From: Rhodococcus zopfii NBRC 100606 = JCM 9919
GTDB lineage: Bacteria > Actinomycetota > Actinomycetes > Mycobacteriales > Mycobacteriaceae
Length of the DNA stretch: 64,000 nt
Direction: 5' to 3'
Assembly (NCBI RefSeq): GCF_001895025.1
Contig: NZ_BCXI01000014.1
Coordinates: forward strand, 62,001-126,000
Shown here: piece after piece, positions 5,977 through 14,197 of the stretch
How the letters are laid out: every line of letters starts with the position of its first letter
Numbering within the stretch: the first letter of the stretch is position 1
The notes under the pieces: model-generated
What the model was told of the DNA's origin: nothing
The model's database searches: none
What the model saw: only the letters and a program-made list of their open reading frames with translations
Made by a program: the position numbers and the translations under genes

Positions 5977-7002
5977 TCAACCGCAGGTGGGTGCGTCGCC
6001 ACCCGCGGTGACGGCCGCGAGAGCGTCGATCGCGCCCGCGAGGGATTCGACGCGGATCAGCTGCAGACCGTCGGGGACGTCGGTGAGCGCCTCGGCGCAA
6101 TTGTCGGCGGGCACCAGGAAGACGGTGGCGCCGTCCTCGACCGCACCCTCGAGCTTGTGGGTGATGCCGCCGATCGGTCCGACTTTGCCGTCCGAATCGA
6201 TGGTGCCGGTGCCCGCGACGGCGAGCCCGCCGTTGAGCGGTCCGGGACTGAGCTTGTCGACGACGGCGAGGCTGAACATGAGGCCGGCCGAGGGTCCGCC
6301 GATGTCGGCGAGGTTGAACGTGACGGTGAAGGGCACCTCGGGCACCTCCTCGGTGGTGATCCCGAGATAGCCCTTGTCCGGGTCACCCGGACGTGACGCG
6401 ACGGTGACCTGCACAGCCTCGTCGACGCCGTCGCGGCGTACCTGCACATCCAGTTCCGTGCCCGGCGCGACCGCACCGACGGCGCGCTGCACGCTGCCGG
6501 CGGTGGTCACCTGTTCGCCCGCGACCGCGACGATCTGATCGCCCTCCCGGAACACTCCGGTGGCCGGTGCATCGTCGCCGACCTGCGCGACCCGTACGGT
6601 CACCGGCATGTCGAGGTGGTGCAGCGCGGCGAGTTCGGCGCTGCGTTCGGACTGCGTGAACATCTCCTGGTCGGCGGCGCGGACGTCGTCCTTGCTGACA
6701 TCCGGCGGGTACACGGTCTCGCGCGGAGCGAGCGCGTACCGGTCGCTGATCCACACCGTCAGAGCCTGCGCGAGCGTCAGCTGGTCGTTGACGCCGACCG
6801 TAGTCATCCGCAGCTGGCCGCTGGTCGCGTCGGGTTCGACGCCGTCGATCTGCACGACGGGCTTGCCGTCGGCCTCGCCGAGCGTGTCGAACGTCGGCCC
6901 CGGACCGAGCGCCACGTACGGAGCCTTCGTATTGGTGGCGATACCCGCCAGGCCCAGGAGGGGGATCAGCACCGCGAGCGGCGTCACGAAGCGTCGATTC
7001 AC
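5977..7002 (-). CDS. Membrane-anchored PDZ and Lon-type (S16) serine protease, Rv3194c-like
   Basis: A 341-aa protein with one N-terminal membrane segment (about residues 7-25), a PDZ domain (about 125-215) and a C-terminal S16 Lon proteolytic domain. The Ser-Lys dyad is visible as the serine of GGPSAGLMF and the lysine of GGITHKLEGA. It has no AAA+ module, so it probably acts on exported or membrane substrates independently of ATP. GTG start at 7002. It diverges from the zinc-metallopeptidase-like gene. Confidence 0.9.
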   Translation of the reverse strand: MNRRFVTPLAVLIPLLGLAGIATNTKAPYVALGPGPTFDTLGEADGKPVVQIDGVEPDATSGQLRMTTVGVNDQLTLAQALTVWISDRYALAPRETVYPPDVSKDDVRAADQEMFTQSERSAELAALHHLDMPVTVRVAQVGDDAPATGVFREGDQIVAVAGEQVTTAGSVQRAVGAVAPGTELDVQVRRDGVDEAVQVTVASRPGDPDKGYLGITTEEVPEVPFTVTFNLADIGGPSAGLMFSLAVVDKLSPGPLNGGLAVAGTGTIDSDGKVGPIGGITHKLEGAVEDGATVFLVPADNCAEALTDVPDGLQLIRVESLAGAIDALAAVTAGGDAPTCG

Positions 7003-7091
7003 CCGGCCCAGGGTAGCGGGCAGCCGATGTTCGCGATCAGCGTGATCACGGATGTCCGATCCCCACGCCGGCGCCTTGTACCGTTGAATAC

Positions 7092-8552
7092 ATGAGCGAC
7101 ACGCCTTTCGGATTCTCGAGCTCCGACGACGACCCGGACCGGAAGAAGGACGACAATTCCGGCACCGGCGGGTCCGGATCGGAGGGCGGCGCGTCCGGCG
7201 GCTTCCCGTTCGGTTTCGGGCTGCCCGGCGGCGCGAACCCGTTCGGCGGCGGCGACGCCGGTGCGAATCCGTTCGGGGCGCAGGGTTTCGACCCGTCGCA
7301 GTTCGGCCAGATGCTCTCCCAGTTCGGTCAGATGCTCAGCGGTATGGGCAGCGCGATGGGCACCGGCGGTTCCGGGCCGGTGAACTACGAGATTGCGATG
7401 AAGCTGGCCCGGCAGCAGGTCGGGTCGTTCACACCCGTCTCCTCCGGAGAAGCCGACGCGGTCCGCGACGCGGCGCATCTCGCCGAACTCTGGCTCGACG
7501 GCGCGACCACGCTCCCCGCGGGCGCGACCCGCACGGTCGCGTGGACGCCGGTCGAGTGGCTCGAGAACACCCTCGACACCTGGAAGCGGCTGTGCGATCC
7601 GGTGGCCGAGCAGGTCAACGGCATGTGGCTGCAGGGTCTGCCGGAGGAGGCCCGCACGATGGCGGGTCCGATGCTGGGCATGTTCGGTCAGATGGGCGGA
7701 CTCGCGTTCGGTTCTCAGCTGGGTCAGGCGCTCGGTCAGTTGTCGAAGGAGGTACTGACCTCCACCGACATCGGTCTGCCGCTCGGTCCGGCCGGGACCG
7801 CGGCGTTGCTGCCCGAGGCGGTGGGCAGGTTCGGGGAGGGTCTCGAACAGCCCGCGCAGGAGGTTCTGGTGTTCCTGGCCGCCCGTGAGGCGGCGCACCA
7901 CCGTCTCTACAGCCACGTGCCGTGGCTGCGGCAGCGGTTGCTCTCGACCGTCGAGGAGTACGCCCGCAATATTCGCATGGACTTCTCCGCCATCGAGGAT
8001 CTCGCGCAGGGCCTGGACCCGTCCGCGCTGACCGACCCGTCGAAGCTCCAGGAGATCCTCCAGCAGGGCGCCCTCGAACCGCAGACCACCCCGGAGCAGA
8101 AGCAGGCTCTCGAACGGCTCGAGACGCTGCTCGCCCTCGTCGAGGGCTGGGTCGAGACCGTGGTGTCGAATGCGCTCGGCGAGCGGCTGCCCGGAGCGTC
8201 GGCGCTGAGCGAGACCCTGCGGCGGCGCCGCGCCTCCGGTGGTCCCGCCGAGCAGACCTTCGCGACGCTGGTCGGCCTCGAACTGCGGCCGCGCAAGCTG
8301 CGGGAAGCCGCGGCGCTGTGGCGCACCCTCACCGAGCAGGCCGGCGCGGAAGCGCGGGACAAGGTGTGGGCCCATCCGGATCTGCTGCCCGATGCGTCCG
8401 ATCTGGACAGCCCGGCCGGGTTCGTCGATCGGATGCTCGGCGGCGACACCGGGGTGTTCGACGATCCGATCGCTCAGCTGCGGGCCGTCGAGGAACGCGA
8501 ACGCGCGGAGAGGGAGAAGGGCGACGGGGTCGATCCCGACGAATCGGCCTAG
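7092..8552 (+). CDS. Zinc-dependent metallopeptidase-like protein (DUF2342 family, Rv3195-like)
   Basis: A 486-aa protein with a Gly/Phe/Asn-rich low-complexity N terminus (repeats of NPFG and QFGQMLS, residues 1-95) and a conserved C-terminal helical domain. The family is annotated as a zinc-dependent metalloprotease or putative hydrolase; the likely metal site is AAREAAHHRLYSHVPWLRQ (about residues 262-280), whose EAAHH replaces the canonical HExxH. ATG 7092. It is followed by the cyclodehydratase-like and UbiB-type genes on the same strand. Activity is not established from sequence. Confidence 0.78.
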   Translation: MSDTPFGFSSSDDDPDRKKDDNSGTGGSGSEGGASGGFPFGFGLPGGANPFGGGDAGANPFGAQGFDPSQFGQMLSQFGQMLSGMGSAMGTGGSGPVNYEIAMKLARQQVGSFTPVSSGEADAVRDAAHLAELWLDGATTLPAGATRTVAWTPVEWLENTLDTWKRLCDPVAEQVNGMWLQGLPEEARTMAGPMLGMFGQMGGLAFGSQLGQALGQLSKEVLTSTDIGLPLGPAGTAALLPEAVGRFGEGLEQPAQEVLVFLAAREAAHHRLYSHVPWLRQRLLSTVEEYARNIRMDFSAIEDLAQGLDPSALTDPSKLQEILQQGALEPQTTPEQKQALERLETLLALVEGWVETVVSNALGERLPGASALSETLRRRRASGGPAEQTFATLVGLELRPRKLREAAALWRTLTEQAGAEARDKVWAHPDLLPDASDLDSPAGFVDRMLGGDTGVFDDPIAQLRAVEERERAEREKGDGVDPDESA

Positions 8553-8646
8553 CACCCTGTTTCCGCAGGCAGCAGCAGATTTCGCCCTGTGGATAACTCG
8601 GTGATCGAGGGCGGCGCCGGACGATGCGGCTGTCAGGCTCGACGTC

Positions 8647-9528
8647 ATGACGTCGACATCTGCGCACACGTCCGGCCCCGCCCTCGACCACTGCCTCGAG
8701 CTGCTGCGCCGCCCGGACGGCACCGTCCAGCTCGGATGGGGACCGGACACCGGTGCTCTGGTGGTTCCACCGGAGGGCATCGATGCGTTCGATCTGCTCA
8801 CCGTGCTGCGGATGCTCGACGGCCGTCACCCGCGTGAGAGGGTCCTCGCCCGCATCACCGAGCGCGGCGTGGATGCCGCCGCGGTCGACGCGATCCTCGA
8901 CGAGCTCGTCTCGTACGGGGCACTGCGGGATCCCGCGCGCACCGGCTCGGACACCACCGTGGAACCGCGAGTGCGTATCCACGGCGACGGACCGCTCGCC
9001 GATGCGATCGCCGCGCACCTGGGGGTGTCCTCGGTGCGGGTGTCCCGGTCCGGTTCGTATCCGCAGACCAGCGATGTCGCGGCGTGGAACGTGCAGTGTG
9101 TGCTCCTCACCGACGATCTGACCCCGGATCCGCACCTCGTCGTGGATCTGATGCGGCACCGGATCCCGCACCTGCCGGTCCGGCTCCGCGACGGTCGCGG
9201 TGTCGTCGGACCGTTCGTCGTGCCCGGCCGGACCAGTTGCCTGCGCTGCGCGGACCTGGCCCGCACCGATCTCGACCCGGCGTGGCCGCACCTCGCAGCC
9301 CAGCTGTGGGGCCGGGTCGGTCGCGCCGACCCCGCCGTCGTCCTGGCGACCGCGGCGGTCGCGGTGGGACAGATCGATGCTGCCGCGACCGGCCGTCCGG
9401 AGAACGCGCCGCTCCTGGTCGACCGCACGCTCGAGGTGGACCTCGACGCACACCGGTTCACGACACGCCGCTGGTTCTGGCATCCACGGTGTACGTGCAC
9501 ACCGGCGACGGGTGCGGGTCGGGCATGA
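8647..9528 (+). CDS. Orphan TOMM-cyclodehydratase-like (E1-like, ThiF-related) protein, Rv3196-like
   Basis: A 293-aa protein. The N-terminal 95 residues look like a winged-helix RiPP-recognition-type module (GIDAFDLLTVLRMLDGRHPRE). The C-terminal half carries GPFVVPGRTSCLRCADLART followed by DPAWP, the block typical of cyclodehydratase partner proteins of azoline-forming peptides. The CxxC at LRC plus a terminal HPRCTCTP pair could bind zinc. No YcaO protein or precursor peptide is nearby, so the job is unknown. Its stop overlaps the kinase start by 4 nt (ATGA), implying translational coupling. Confidence 0.7.
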   Translation: MTSTSAHTSGPALDHCLELLRRPDGTVQLGWGPDTGALVVPPEGIDAFDLLTVLRMLDGRHPRERVLARITERGVDAAAVDAILDELVSYGALRDPARTGSDTTVEPRVRIHGDGPLADAIAAHLGVSSVRVSRSGSYPQTSDVAAWNVQCVLLTDDLTPDPHLVVDLMRHRIPHLPVRLRDGRGVVGPFVVPGRTSCLRCADLARTDLDPAWPHLAAQLWGRVGRADPAVVLATAAVAVGQIDAAATGRPENAPLLVDRTLEVDLDAHRFTTRRWFWHPRCTCTPATGAGRA

Positions 9529-10868
9529 TGGTGGGCGTGGCCGAAATTCCCCGCAAGAGCTCCTCCCGCACCGCCAAACTGGCGAGCATCCCGCTCGGGA
9601 TCGCCGGACGCGCCGCCGTGGGCTTCGGTCGCCGGCTGGCCGGCGGCGACCGCGACGAGATCGACGCCGAGCTGACCGCAAAGGCGGCCGAACAACTGTT
9701 CTCCGTCCTCGGCGAACTCAAGGGCGGCGCCATGAAGTTCGGCCAGGCACTGAGCGTCATGGAGGCGGCCGTCCCGGAGGAGTTCGCCGAACCGTATCGC
9801 GAGGCCCTGACCAAGCTGCAGTCCGAGGCTCCGCCGCTGCCCGCGAAGGCTGTGCACCGGATGCTCGATCAGCAGCTCGGGACAAGGTGGCGTGAGCGTT
9901 TCGCGTCGTTCGACGACGTACCGACGGCGTCGGCGAGCATCGGACAGGTGCACCGGGCGGTGTGGTCCGACGGCCGCGAGGTCGCGGTGAAGGTGCAGTA
10001 CCCGGGTGCCGACGAGGCGTTGCGCGCGGATCTGCGCACCCTGCAACGGTTCGCGGGACTGTTCGCGACGGTCATGCCCGGCACCGACGTGCGTCCGGTC
10101 CTCGACGAATTGTCGGCCCGCACCGAGGAAGAACTCGACTACCGCATCGAGGCGGACAACCAGCGGGCCTTCGCCCGAGCCTTCGATGGCGACCCCCGCT
10201 TCCTGGTGCCGCATGTTGTCGCAAGCGCGCCGAAAGTTGTAGTGACCGAGTGGCTTTCGGCGACACCACTGTCGGCGATCATCCAGAAGGGTACTCGCGA
10301 GCAGCGCAACCGCGCGGGGGCCCTGCTCGCCGAGTTCCATTTCGCCTCCCCCGCCCAGGTCGGGCTGTTGCACAGCGATCCGCATCCGGGGAACTTCATG
10401 CTGCTCGACGACGGACGTCTGGGGATCATCGATTTCGGCGCGACCGCGTCGATGCCCGACGGTCTGCCGGCGGTACTGGGCCGGATGGTGCGCCTGGCGG
10501 TGGACGAGCGGTTCGACGAGCTGACCGAGCTGCTGTACACGAATCGGTTCGTGTTGCCCGGCAAGGAGGTCACGGATCGCGAGATCGCGGACTATCTGCG
10601 GCCGTTCACCGATCCGATCCGCGCCGAGTCGTTCCACTTCACACGGGCATGGCTGCAGAAGGCCGCGGGCACGGCCACCGACTTCTCGAGCCCGCAGTTC
10701 CGCACCGCGCGGACACTGAATCTGCCGCCGGAGTACGTGAGTGTGTTCCGCGTGCTGCTCGGCTCGGTGGGGATCTGCGCGCAGCTCGACGCGTACGCGC
10801 CGTACATGCGGATCCTGTCGGAATGGTTGCCCGGTTTCACCGACGACCGGTCTGAGGCCCTCGAGTGA
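9525..10868 (+). CDS. ABC1/UbiB-family atypical protein kinase-like protein (Rv3197-like)
   Basis: A 447-aa member of the UbiB/ADCK family. The family-specific KxGQ motif is MKFGQALSV, the nucleotide loop is SASIGQVHRAVW, the lysine motif is VAVKVQYPG, the catalytic loop is HSDPHPGNFML and the metal motif is IIDFGAT. UbiB proteins support lipid-quinone biology, but actinobacteria use menaquinone and the real substrate is unknown; the mycobacterial homologue has been linked to intrinsic macrolide resistance next to whiB7. The ATG at 9525 overlaps the upstream stop (ATGA). ATG 9528 is an alternative. Confidence 0.88.
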   Translation: MMVGVAEIPRKSSSRTAKLASIPLGIAGRAAVGFGRRLAGGDRDEIDAELTAKAAEQLFSVLGELKGGAMKFGQALSVMEAAVPEEFAEPYREALTKLQSEAPPLPAKAVHRMLDQQLGTRWRERFASFDDVPTASASIGQVHRAVWSDGREVAVKVQYPGADEALRADLRTLQRFAGLFATVMPGTDVRPVLDELSARTEEELDYRIEADNQRAFARAFDGDPRFLVPHVVASAPKVVVTEWLSATPLSAIIQKGTREQRNRAGALLAEFHFASPAQVGLLHSDPHPGNFMLLDDGRLGIIDFGATASMPDGLPAVLGRMVRLAVDERFDELTELLYTNRFVLPGKEVTDREIADYLRPFTDPIRAESFHFTRAWLQKAAGTATDFSSPQFRTARTLNLPPEYVSVFRVLLGSVGICAQLDAYAPYMRILSEWLPGFTDDRSEALE

Positions 10869-10914: not shown

Positions 10915-11235
10915 TCACGCGCACACCAGTTGTTTCCGTGGTCGCCCCCGGGGGCGTTTGCGTGCGACGACGGTTCCGCGGTCGAGGATCTCGCCGCCCC
11001 ACACACCCCACGGCTCGGCGCGATCGAGTGCCGCCGCGAGGCAGCGCGTGCGGATGGGACAGTCGGCGCACAGCGCCTTGGCCTGCTCGAGCTCGGCCGG
11101 GGTCTCGGCGAACCACAGGTCGGGGTTGTCCTGTCGGCACGGGAGTTCACGCACACGTGCCGTCCCGGTCCGGTCGATCGCGACGCCGATCTCGGTCACG
11201 GTCGCAGTCGGGGTGGGCACAGTTGCGGTCGGCAC
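10915..11235 (-). CDS. whiB7: WhiB7, Fe-S transcriptional activator of antibiotic resistance
   Basis: A 106-aa Wbl protein. Four cluster cysteines are present (LPC, then CADC, then C five residues on), followed by the G(V/I)WGG turn (GVWGGE) that contacts SigA. A C-terminal AT-hook, RGRPRK, is diagnostic of WhiB7 and binds an AT-rich minor groove just upstream of the -35 of target promoters. The GTG start at 11235 is fixed by an excellent AGAAGGAGG Shine-Dalgarno at 11241-11249. It is expressed from a long regulated leader (11236-11541). Confidence 0.95.
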   Translation of the reverse strand: MPTATVPTPTATVTEIGVAIDRTGTARVRELPCRQDNPDLWFAETPAELEQAKALCADCPIRTRCLAAALDRAEPWGVWGGEILDRGTVVARKRPRGRPRKQLVCA

Positions 11236-11295
11236 AGTGGCCTCCTTCTGGCTGGTTCGGATGATGGGCGCGAACCGGGGGCCGGAAAGAAGAAC

Positions 11296-11325
11296 GGCCA
11301 CGGTCCGCTGGGCGGGTCCGTGGCC
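11296..11325 (-). terminator. Intrinsic terminator (attenuator) in the whiB7 leader
   Basis: On the minus strand GGCCACGG pairs with CCGTGGCC, with an inner CCGC/GCGG stem, followed by GTTCTTCTTT. It lies 16 nt after the uORF stop and about 60 nt before the whiB7 start, so it can abort whiB7 transcription unless uORF translation is disturbed, as known for mycobacterial whiB7. Confidence 0.75.
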
Positions 11326-11341
11326 GAAACGATGGAGCGGG

Positions 11342-11485
11342 TTACCGGGGAATCTCCCGGAACCGGCTTCGGGCCACGGACGAGGCGGCGGCAGCGCGGG
11401 CACGATGCGCCCACGGTGCGGCGGCGATGGGCGCCACGACGCGCGCGGCGGCCAGGTCCGCTGCAGCTGCGTTGAAGCCGATCAT
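11342..11485 (-). CDS. Leader peptide (uORF) of whiB7
   Basis: A 47-codon frame starting MIGFNAAAADLAAARVV with its own GAGGAGG Shine-Dalgarno (11494-11500) and ending just before the attenuator hairpin. It is Ala/Arg-rich. In mycobacteria a whiB7 uORF senses ribosome inhibition and switches the attenuator; position and spacing here fit that role. The peptide sequence itself may not matter. Confidence 0.65.
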   Translation of the reverse strand: MIGFNAAAADLAAARVVAPIAAAPWAHRARAAAASSVARSRFREIPR

Positions 11486-11597: not shown

Positions 11598-13742
11598 TCA
11601 GATGTCGAGGGTGTCCGCGGTGCGTTCGCCCCGTACGAGCGCGAGCACATCCTCGCCGTACTGCTCGAGCTTCTTCGCGCCGATCCCCGGGATCGCCACC
11701 AGCGATCGGGTGTCGCCCGGCCGCTGCTCGGCGATGGCGACGAGCGTGTTGTCACTGAACACGACGTAGGCCGGAACCTTCTGCTCCTTCGAGCGTTCCC
11801 GCCTCCAGTTCTTCAGCGCCACCAGCAGATCCTCGTCGAGGTTCGACGGGCAGGTCTCGCAGCGGCCCAGCATCGTCGACGTCGATCCCATCAGGGGCTT
11901 GCCGCACACCCGGCACTGCGGCCGCTTCTTCTTCGACGGCGGTGGGATCGCGATTCGCGAAGCCGGTGAGTCCTCGGGGATGAGATCGTGCAGGAACCGG
12001 GAGCGGCGCCGCGACCGGCGACCGCCCTCGCTGCGGGACAGCGCCCACGACAGGTGCAGGTGGACGCGGGCACGGGTCACCCCGACATACAGCAGGCGGC
12101 GTTCTTCCTCGATGCCGGCCTCGTCCGGCGGGGTGTTGCTGTCGCCGGTGACATGGGTGATGGGCAGCGTGCCGTCGGTGAGCCCGACGAGGAACACCGC
12201 GTCCCATTCCAGGCCCTTGGCGGCATGCAGCGAGGCGAGCGTCACGCCCTGCACGGTCGGTGGCTGCCGCGCTTCGGCGCGCGCCGCGAGGTCACGAAGC
12301 AACTCGTCGAGGGTGAGTTCGGGCTGATGTTCGAGCAGTTCCTCGGTGAGCGCCACGAGCGCGGTCAGCGACGCCCAACGTTCCCGCGCCTGCGCACCGG
12401 CCGGTTCGGTGTCGGTGAGCCCGAGCGGCACCAGGACCGCACGAACAAGCGTGACGAGCCCGGCACCGCGACCCGATTCCTCGGGCAGGTCGTCGCGCGC
12501 GTGAACCTGCCGCAGCGCGTTGACGGCCTGCCGCACCTCGTCGCGCTGGAAGAACCCTTCGCCGCCACGCACCTGATACGGGATTCCGGCCTGGGTGAAC
12601 GCCTGCTCGTACGCCTCCGACTGCGCGTTGATCCGGTACAGCACCGCGATCTCGGCGGCGTCGACCCCGTCGCGCAGCAGCTTCGCGATCGCCTTGGCGA
12701 CAGCGGTGGCCTCGGCCGGTTCGTCGTCGTACTCGGCGAAGTGCGGTTCCGGGCCCGGCGGGCGCTGCCCGATCAGTTGCAGACGGGTGCCGGCGATGCG
12801 GCCGCGGGCCGCGCCGATCACCCGGTTGGCGAGGTCGACGACCTGCGGCGTGGACCGGTAGTCCCGTTCGAGGCGCACGATCGTCGCCTCCGGGAAGCGC
12901 CGGGTGAAGTCGAGCAGGTATTTCGGGGTGGCACCGGTGAACGAGTAGATGGTCTGGTTTGCGTCGCCGACGACGGTCAGGTCGTCGCGGTCGCCGAGCC
13001 ACGCGTCGAGGACCCGCTGCTGCAGCGGCGTGACGTCCTGGTATTCGTCCACGACGAAACAGCGATACCGGTCGCGGAACTCCTCGGCGACGGCGCTGTT
13101 CTCCTCGAGCGCGCTGGCGGTGTGCAGCAGGAGATCGTCGAAGTCGAGGTACATCCCCTCGTCGCGCACCTTGAGCTTCTCGTAGATCTCGTAGACGGCC
13201 GCCACCCGGGACGCCTCGGCCGGGGGTTCACGGCGGACCCGCTCGACCGCCGCCGGGTAGTCCTCCGGCGCGATGAGCGAGCCCTTCGCCCATTCGATCT
13301 CCGAGAGCAGGTCGCGCACGGTGTCGGTGTCGGTCGCGAACTTGGCGCGGTGCGCGGCCTGTGACACGACCGCGAACTTGCGGTCGAGCAGCTGCCACGG
13401 GATGTCACCGACGACCTGCGGCCAGAAGTAGCGCAGCTGCCGCAGCGCGGCGGCGTGGAAGGTGCGAGCCTGCACCTGGGCACCCGATCCGCCGACGCCG
13501 AGTTCGCGCAGGCGTGAGCGCATCTCCCCCGCCGCGCGGGCGGTGAACGTCACCGCGAGGACCTGTCCGGCGGAGACGTGACCGGCGGAGACGAGGTGCG
13601 CGATGCGACGGGTGATGGTGCGGGTCTTGCCGGTGCCGGCGCCGGCGAGCACGCACACCGGGCCGCGGGGGGCGAGCACCGCCGCCGCCTGCTGTGGGTC
13701 CAGCCCGTCCACCGCCGCATCCGCTCGCATGGCCTCCATCAT
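11598..13742 (-). CDS. uvrD2: ATP-dependent DNA helicase UvrD2 (SF1, tetracysteine and HRDC)
   Basis: A 714-aa SF1A helicase. Walker A is LAGAGTGKT (lysine about residue 39) and Walker B is VVDEYQD (about residue 230). A zinc-type tetracysteine module (CRVCGKP and CETCPSN, about residues 610-635) precedes a C-terminal HRDC domain (about 640-714). This order is specific to mycobacterial-type UvrD2, an essential 3'-5' helicase of DNA repair. The paired ATG-ATG at 13742/13739 is the assumed start; ATG 13730 is possible because a GGAGG lies just after the first pair. Confidence 0.92.
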
Positions 13743-13853
13743 GGCAGTGCGCCCCGACAGCCCATTGCCGCGACTCCCCCGACGCCTGTGGCGCAGAACA
13801 CATCCGGGACCCCGCCGGGAACAGAACCGCCCCGATGTGGTGTTCTCGCGAAC

Positions 13854-14108
13854 ATGACCACGACCGAAGCCTCCGCCCTCACGATGTACTCGACCACCTG
13901 GTGCGGCTACTGCCGGCGCCTGAAGACGCAGCTCGATGCGAACGGCATCGCGTACACCGAGATCGACATCGAGGCCGACCCGGCCGCCGCGGAGTTCGTC
14001 GGCAGCGTCAACGGCGGCAATCACGTCGTGCCGACCGTGAAGTACGCGGACGGCAGCACCGCGACCAACCCGTCGCTGGTCGAGGTCAAGGCCGCGCTGG
14101 GCCTGTAG
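13854..14108 (+). CDS. mrx1: Mycoredoxin (glutaredoxin-like, mycothiol-dependent)
   Basis: An 84-aa glutaredoxin fold with the active site WCGYCRRL near the N terminus and the cis-proline segment [11 protein letters not shown]. Mycoredoxin-1 reduces mycothiol-mixed disulfides on proteins. The ATG at 13854 gives the standard length; the frame is open upstream but without a Shine-Dalgarno. It is divergent from uvrD2 and convergent with nudC, the mycobacterial order. Confidence 0.9.
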
Positions 14109-14139
14109 GGACTCGCGGCCGCCGGCTCTTTTCACATTC

Positions 14140-14197
14140 GCTCGGTCGCCAGGCATCCGCCAACGCAATTGTCACAGCGGACGACTGGCGGCCGAGC
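14140..14197. repeat. Long imperfect inverted repeat between mrx1 and nudC
   Basis: GCTCGGTCGCCA (14140-14151) pairs with TGGCGGCCGAGC (14186-14197) with one G:T-type mismatch, and an inner TCCGC/GCGGA pair (14156-14160 with 14177-14181) extends it across a symmetric 4-nt internal loop. There is no T-tract, so it need not be a terminator. Role unknown. Confidence 0.45.

Follow-up and report, generated by a model that had tools for sequence, protein, structure and literature searches.

An orphan E1-like protein with a predicted peptide clamp stands beside a MABP-1 orthologue and a degenerate zincin in a class-wide actinomycete locus

What does a protein resembling the E1-like partners of thiazole/oxazole-modified microcin (TOMM) cyclodehydratases do in a genome that has no YcaO enzyme? 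The question is raised by a three-gene locus of Rhodococcus zopfii NBRC 100606 = JCM 9919 (GCF_001895025.1), which lies in the 64,000-nt stretch analysed here, called the window (NZ_BCXI01000014.1, positions 62,001-126,000, forward strand). An initial annotation of the letters had described a cyclodehydratase-like protein between a metallopeptidase-like protein and a UbiB-family kinase, and the genes, their coordinates, the motif blocks, the ATGA overlap and the EAAHH site were all located as claimed. The features of the locus, in window coordinates, are the following.

7092..8552, + strand: Zincin_2/TIGR03624 protein, 486 aa, probable pseudo-peptidase (family scans; predicted core similar to PDB 3cmn)
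7092..7373, + strand: N-terminal tail of the zincin, residues 1-94, starting MSDTPFGF, predicted disordered (block pLDDT 29-39 over residues 1-90)
7884..7901, + strand: REAAHH, a degenerate HEXXH with Arg for the first His, zincin residues 265-270 (alignment of relatives)
8647..9528, + strand: E1-like peptide-clamp protein, 293 aa, TIGR03882-like (family scan, predicted fold, profile comparison)
8671..8931, + strand: N-terminal clamp, similar to a RiPP recognition element (RRE), about residues 9-95 (predicted strands 19-39, helices 47-90)
8944..9513, + strand: E1/ThiF-like domain, about residues 100-289, without the segment bearing the E1 Asn/Arg motif (VIA alignment to MoeB 1jw9)
9238..9249, + strand: CxxC (C198, C201), first half of a putative zinc site (52/52 aligned family members)
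9490..9498, + strand: CxC (C282, C284), second half of the putative zinc site (48/52 aligned family members)
9525..10868, + strand: ABC1/UbiB-family protein, MABP-1 orthologue, 447 aa (NF050082 643.9 bits; phmmer to 7cy2 and 5yjz)

Our preferred reading, to which we give about even confidence, is that the E1-like protein is a core, ATP-independent scaffold that holds a peptide or protein, partnered by the zincin-like protein and, across most lineages, by MABP-1. It builds on the predicted fold, the missing Asn/Arg motif, the conserved cysteines, a gene order kept across the class and the lack of YcaO.

The E1-like protein contains GPFVVPGRTSCLRC from residue 188, together with DPAWP. Its TIGR03882 score of 36.7 bits is just below the curated cut-off of 36.9, and in the family scan of the window protein no Pfam family scored above its cut-off. 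An AlphaFold2 model was built on 22 sequences and reached a mean confidence (pLDDT) of 80.5 and a predicted TM score (pTM) of 0.64. The top Foldseek matches of this model were TruD (4e-13), LynD, MccB (1e-10), the McbBCD complex and PaaA, followed by MoeB and ThiF. Chain 2 of the McbBCD complex 6gri, which we take to be McbB, gave TM scores of 0.51/0.54. VIA alignments to MccB and TruD begin at residue 8-9. Across both domains the alignment to MccB had Z 17.3 and a root-mean-square deviation (rmsd) of 11.6, and therefore the domain arrangement differs between the model and MccB; residues 100-286 aligned to MoeB 1jw9 with Z 16.2 and rmsd 2.7. The boundaries of the clamp were read from the whole-protein model and alignments, not from a separate domain search. 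A profile of 52 relatives matched PaaA best (1.8e-16, over the clamp and the start of the E1 domain, from PaaA residue 5) and MccB next (1.4e-14), and 50 of the 52 relatives matched TIGR03882 at E 0.001 or better. The initial annotation had proposed an orphan cyclodehydratase-like protein whose N-terminus plausibly forms a peptide-recognition module, and structure prediction agrees: the predicted fold is E1-like with a clamp, and not one foreign to both the E1-like and the RRE types.

The Asn and Arg of the E1 nucleotide site are catalytic. In the alignment, the segment that bears this motif is absent from the window protein; among the 52 aligned rows it is kept in 45 and missing or incomplete in 7. 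At the position aligned with the Asn, the 45 rows have Asp (44) or Glu (1), and at that aligned with the Arg they have Pro in 38 and Arg in 1; the N..R motif occurs in none of them. Identity among the aligned proteins ranges from 24 to 66%. The CxxC is present in 52/52 and the CxC in 48/52, the two cysteine pairs forming a putative zinc site. Judged from sequence and model, the protein is a probable pseudo-E1 with a peptide clamp, which can hold a peptide and should not adenylate it.

The lack of a YcaO or precursor gene nearby, already pointed out in the initial annotation, extends to the whole genome in the case of YcaO: none was found in the window's genome by a search that was positive in 5 of 14 control genomes. 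In the window a precursor gene would not fit on either side of the E1-like gene. Within a class sample of 158 genomes, YcaO occurs in 39, of which 34 match the E1-like profile; 100 of the 134 genomes that match this profile, and 92 of the 125 in which the match has a listed place, are free of YcaO. In the 33 placed genomes that have both, inspection by eye showed no YcaO on the contig of the E1-like gene at less than 100 kb from it. One genome has a second E1-like match (G023:C1:4900239-4900739) directly before a YcaO match (4901274), both with an 859-aa open frame and apart from the locus copy at 5748766; this second match is likely a genuine TOMM protein.

The nine remaining E1-like matches in the class sample are weaker and have no listed place; for one of them (G439, 3.6e-4) no such gene is present in the fetched stretch, L147. 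Six of ten fetched stretches from genomes unmatched by the profile do carry the gene. TIGR03624 matches 158/158 genomes, paralogues included, and the MABP-1 model matches 153/158 at a loose threshold, with 5/158 exceeding its 800-bit cut-off. The E1-like profile also matches six genomes that are single contigs of 1.3-1.4 Mb and 99-100% complete, with the locus seen in the fetched stretches L130 and L131; retention in complete genomes of this size speaks for a core function. When a wider profile was run on a phylum sample, 231/296 genomes matched, and among the listed matches every strong, near-full-length one lies in the window's class. The other listed matches are weak (best 1e-11) and mostly to the generic E1 region, and are read as ordinary ThiF/MoeB relatives. 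A narrower profile matched 36/396 genomes of the phylum sample; two of these, both at E 4e-4, are not members of the class. The suggestion that the system belongs to mycolic-acid bacteria was therefore rejected. This is an old, core, class-wide, non-RiPP actinomycete locus, RiPP standing for ribosomally synthesized and post-translationally modified peptide.

Adjacency was counted in genomes with listed places (125 E1-like, 121 MABP-1 orthologues, the latter defined by more than 370 bits). Both genes are placed in 108 genomes: in 92 the E1-like gene immediately precedes the MABP-1 orthologue on one strand, in 8 the two are 0.7-2.8 kb apart on one strand, and in 8 they are on another contig or strand. 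Routine separation of the genes, named beforehand as evidence against a joint system, was not seen, apart from exceptions such as family f8, where five genomes with the E1-like protein lack a MABP-1 orthologue, and family f7, where three carry the two genes on different contigs. Thirteen genomes have a MABP-1 orthologue without the E1-like protein.

Gene order was further read from 87 fetched stretches with the E1-like gene (L057 on), where "absent" includes genes not covered at contig ends. The zincin is upstream on the E1-like strand in 68 of 71 stretches that hold it, and MABP-1 is downstream in 64 of 65. The order stated for mycobacteria in the initial annotation was found: in all 24 named Mycobacteriales loci (L002-L025) the MABP-1 orthologue comes next after the E1-like gene, with the zincin upstream in 23 (L005 starts at the E1-like gene). 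The projected distance from the E1-like stop to the MABP-1 start has a median of 62 nt and is at most 150 nt in 80/88 stretches, 24 of these from one order; in the sets of 88 (spacing), 95 (zincin) and 99 (MABP-1) rows, 23 or 24 loci come from a single order, many of them from close Rhodococcus. In the window the gap from zincin to E1-like gene is 94 nt. The ATGA overlap with the MABP-1 orthologue is present at 9525-9528, and its ATG can start the third frame (447 aa), but it is a local feature: with start codons chosen by script, it occurs in 3/25 Mycobacteriales loci (the window's own genome, L002 and L003), the other 22 having gaps of 16-95 nt. Coupling as a general feature was rejected on this count.

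Several loci depart from the usual arrangement. L026 (Propioniciclava) has the zincin and E1-like genes, with MABP-1 not alongside. In L067, from the window's family, a transporter-like frame on the opposite strand and a TetR-like regulator frame, both identified by eye, lie between the zincin and the E1-like gene (6327-8454). The E1-like gene is inverted in L119, and the zincin and DUF5679 genes in L125 and L133. L070, also from the window's family, has a gap of about 450 nt (7890-8337) between the E1-like gene and the MABP-1 orthologue; judging by its number, the small M. tuberculosis gene Rv3196A presumably lies in the corresponding gap. Passages of one paper report its product in culture filtrates (PMC10159623), and the term found in the passages of PMC11895460 and PMC10159623 is Rv3196A, not Rv3196.

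By sequence and conserved position, the third gene is a MABP-1 orthologue. Its product scores 188 bits with ABC1 (PF03109) and 643.9 bits with NF050082, the MABP-1 model, which is below that exception model's cut-off of 800. The nearest solved structures are 7cy2 (phmmer E 1.5e-172), which we take to be MSMEG_1954, and 5yjz (E 5.6e-171). The latter is one of four structure codes given for MABP-1 (Rv3197), a protein with ATPase activity and erythromycin binding whose gene deletion in BCG lowers growth under erythromycin (PMC6208485). According to passages on MSMEG_1954, it acts like MABP-1, kinase activity was not identified, and cooperating transmembrane proteins are sought (PMC8696161); in a passage of another paper it is listed as 1.7-fold down in a pafBC deletion, which may tie it to the control of DNA damage (PMC5656591). 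A second ABC1-family gene of the window's genome (G000:C15:185188-186066, L075) is distant from MABP-1 (123.9 bits).

In Rv3197 numbering, mapped as window +1, residues K72, S139, K157, E196, R200, E204, E210, W244, D286, D304 and R410 are kept in 99/99 orthologue rows, among them the hydrogen-bonding erythromycin contacts K72, E196, D286 and R410. The mutation-sensitive E65 is Glu in 85/99, and M203, Q242, A309 and I407 vary, with E, T and S at M203, Q242 and I407 in the window protein. K72 lies in a KxGQ-like motif and D286 in an HxD motif, presumably core UbiB positions, which suggests that the macrolide pocket likely sits partly on residues conserved for another reason. With these residues kept, macrolide binding and ATP hydrolysis are candidate activities of the window protein.

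The first gene product scores 441.9 bits with PF10103 (Zincin_2) and 411.6 bits with TIGR03624, and its predicted core matches PDB 3cmn (Foldseek E 5e-9, TM 0.80 by target length). At the HEXXH place 3cmn has LHEMTH in the alignment and the genome's Zincin_2 paralogue LHEVTH, where the window zincin has REAAHH. Among 95 relatives the first HEXXH position is Arg in 92 and Val in 1, with the pattern missing in 2, and the fifth place is His in 72. The zincin of this locus is thus, from its sequence, probably a non-catalytic pseudo-peptidase, and "metallopeptidase-like" does not stand as a statement of activity.

Residues 1-94 of the zincin are disordered in the monomer model, with blocks of pLDDT 29-39 across residues 1-90. 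The tail begins with a motif, [MVL]x(1-6)[PGN]FGF, found in 60 of 71 anchored zincin tails against 0.88 expected on shuffling; 24 more zincin loci gave no usable anchor, and several are visibly without the motif. In the window (7092-7115) and in related zincin starts, a motif of MSDxPFGF type is kept widely in the class while the rest of the tail is variable. Docking of the tail on the zincin's own core is unsupported, as the monomer model leaves it disordered. A tie between the PFGF motif and MABP-1 was also considered and is not relied on: the first count (63/77 with MABP-1 versus 7/21 without) used a loose pattern and counted a broken zincin (L083) twice, and a stricter count on anchored tails (33/39 with MABP-1 in the stretch versus 4/9 without, L057 on) is small and ignores relatedness.

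A further small protein accompanies the locus in other actinomycetes. DUF5679 (PF18930) occurs in 98 of the 158 class genomes; of the 77 genomes with both genes placed, 64 have it no more than 3 kb upstream of the E1-like gene and on its strand. The projected gap between the two genes has a median of 164 nt (55 stretches). It is a highly conserved, zinc-ribbon-like protein of about 50-80 aa that matches zinc-ribbon models weakly, and NRILGKA stands close to the end of the protein in 52 of the 63 stretches holding it. In other families than the window's, its gene usually lies immediately before the E1-like gene; three examples are given here.

L026:7369-7596, DUF5679 gene
L058:10937-11203, DUF5679 gene
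L060:7682-7840, DUF5679 gene

The search for small conserved open reading frames proposed in the initial annotation thus gave a divided answer: none stands beside the E1-like gene in the window, and DUF5679 was recovered upstream elsewhere. It is either a candidate ligand of the clamp or a mere neighbour.

We infer the following for the scaffold's partner, ligand and role. A non-adenylating E1-like protein with a clamp would hold a short peptide or protein terminus independently of ATP. The clamp would grip a terminal peptide of a neighbour's product, most likely the N-terminal PFGF tail of the degenerate zincin, or alternatively DUF5679 where it is present, and the E1-like protein would present the gripped partner to the MABP-1 ATPase. 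MABP-1 may in turn run a UbiB-type ATP cycle by which a hydrophobic ligand is moved or protected, and macrolide binding would be a by-product of its hydrophobic-ligand pocket. That a RiPP-type clamp on a pseudo-E1 was adopted in this way as a core-cell adaptor, recognising the PFGF tail (or DUF5679) and handing the partner to MABP-1, is a tentative proposal that we consider unlikely. If it is true, the E1-like adaptor is a so far unrecognised partner of the macrolide-binding MABP-1.

The locus is set among genes on the other strand, listed here as context.

5977..7002, - strand: divergent PDZ/Lon-type protease gene (PF13180 and PF05362)
10915..11403, - strand: WhiB-family gene in the whiB7 position (PF02467 60.2 bits); the true start may be inside the frame
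11598..14168, - strand: UvrD-like helicase gene in the uvrD2 position (open frame; identity by eye)

We take the second of these to be whiB7-like from its position and a weak AT-hook match, and the third to be uvrD2-like by eye. These two followers, the membership of the third gene in the published MABP-1 family and the upstream DUF5679 elsewhere were points that the initial annotation had missed.

A number of observations weigh against the scaffold reading. The entire neighbourhood is conserved in order, opposite-strand genes included (WhiB convergent in 59/60, UvrD-like convergent in 70/71 and PDZ/Lon upstream and divergent in 57/59 of the stretches holding each), and therefore order alone does not prove cooperation. 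No open reading frame in the fetched stretches fuses two of the families. The E1-like protein occurs without a MABP-1 orthologue in 17/125 placed genomes, and therefore MABP-1 is not its obligatory partner. As for the ligand, the PFGF tail is absent from several lineages that retain the clamp protein, and a profile search found DUF5679 in 0/11 sampled genomes of the window's family. The glycine loop G.G..G, which reads GDGPLA in the window protein, is kept in 33/52 relatives, and 40/52 match Pfam ThiF at E 0.01 or better; therefore the longer E1-like forms may bind nucleotide. Finally, in M. abscessus the orthologue of Rv3195 (the zincin) was caught by a beta-lactone activity probe, and passages of the paper call it a putative hydrolase (PMC12101465); this capture speaks against a wholly inert zincin.

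Among the alternatives, the one that survives best is an antibiotic- or translation-stress module, tied to whiB7, in which MABP-1 acts in macrolide tolerance with the help of the E1-like and zincin-like proteins. We regard it as unlikely. The poorer growth of the BCG deletion under erythromycin (PMC6208485), a similar report for MSMEG_1954 in passages of PMC8696161, the convergent WhiB gene and the invariance of the four hydrogen-bonding contacts all favour it. However, E65 is not universal, M203, A309 and I407 vary, and the E1-like protein occurs in genomes without a MABP-1 orthologue. K72 and D286, moreover, belong to what we take to be UbiB core motifs and need not be selected for macrolides. 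Passages of a paper on the M. abscessus WhiB7 regulon name the whiB7 upstream open reading frame from this locus and gave no match to MABP, MAB_3506 or MAB_3507, the MABP-1 orthologue's own number there not being established (PMC10727445).

A real peptide-modifying system that needs no YcaO and acts on DUF5679 or on the zincin tail appears quite unlikely. The predicted clamp fold is of RiPP type, MccB and PaaA are E1-like RiPP enzymes with such a clamp according to passages of PMC12250964, and both the glycine loop of many relatives and the usual position of DUF5679 would suit it. Against this, N..R is found in none of the segment-bearing rows, and DUF5679 is missing from the sampled genomes of the window's family, where the window itself has only 94 nt between zincin and E1-like gene. 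DUF5679 is also highly conserved, unlike a variable core peptide.

It is more improbable still that these are unrelated housekeeping genes, together only through the stability of that chromosome stretch. The order of the opposite-strand genes is indeed kept as well as that of the trio, and in 8/108 genomes, some of them fragmented drafts, the E1-like gene does not share contig and strand with the MABP-1 gene; however, the same-strand spacing is mostly below 150 nt despite 24-66% identity and insertions elsewhere in the locus. A decayed or hidden TOMM cluster, to which the TIGR03882 similarity of 50/52 relatives might point, was rejected as extremely improbable and already contradicted by the conserved cysteines, the fixed class-wide place and the absence of YcaO from the genome. 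The initial annotation had likewise leaned away from a decayed RiPP cluster.

Searches of the open PMC literature brought up no work on what the E1-like protein or the locus as a unit does, and no paper naming DUF5679. The locus bears on two matters. For MABP-1 crystal structures exist and the mechanism is unsettled; the E1-like neighbour is a concrete partner candidate, though not the transmembrane protein that has been sought. In addition, 50/52 relatives match the model called "TOMM precursor leader peptide-binding protein", a name that may mislabel a core actinomycete gene as RiPP machinery and mislead genome mining.

The three proteins can each be set beside known systems. The window zincin has the fold of Zincin_2/TIGR03624 and 3cmn in common with these, and differs from 3cmn by the Arg in place of the first HEXXH His. 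The third gene product has the ATP-site residues and the hydrogen-bonding erythromycin contacts of MABP-1 (Rv3197) and MSMEG_1954, whereas at M203, Q242 and I407 it departs from MABP-1 as described above. The E1-like protein has the two-domain make-up of MccB and PaaA; in contrast to these enzymes, none of the 52 members keeps the E1 Asn/Arg motif, which 45 rows have replaced and for which 7 rows have lost all or part of the segment. TOMM E1-like scaffold proteins hold the leader peptide, according to passages of PMC10634744. With such scaffolds (McbB, the N-terminal part of TruD/LynD, the TclI-type ocin-ThiF-like proteins) the window protein has in common the clamp, the E1-like domain and the TIGR03882 similarity; unlike them, it has no YcaO partner and no adjoining precursor, is class-wide, and stands in an operon with MABP-1 and a degenerate zincin.

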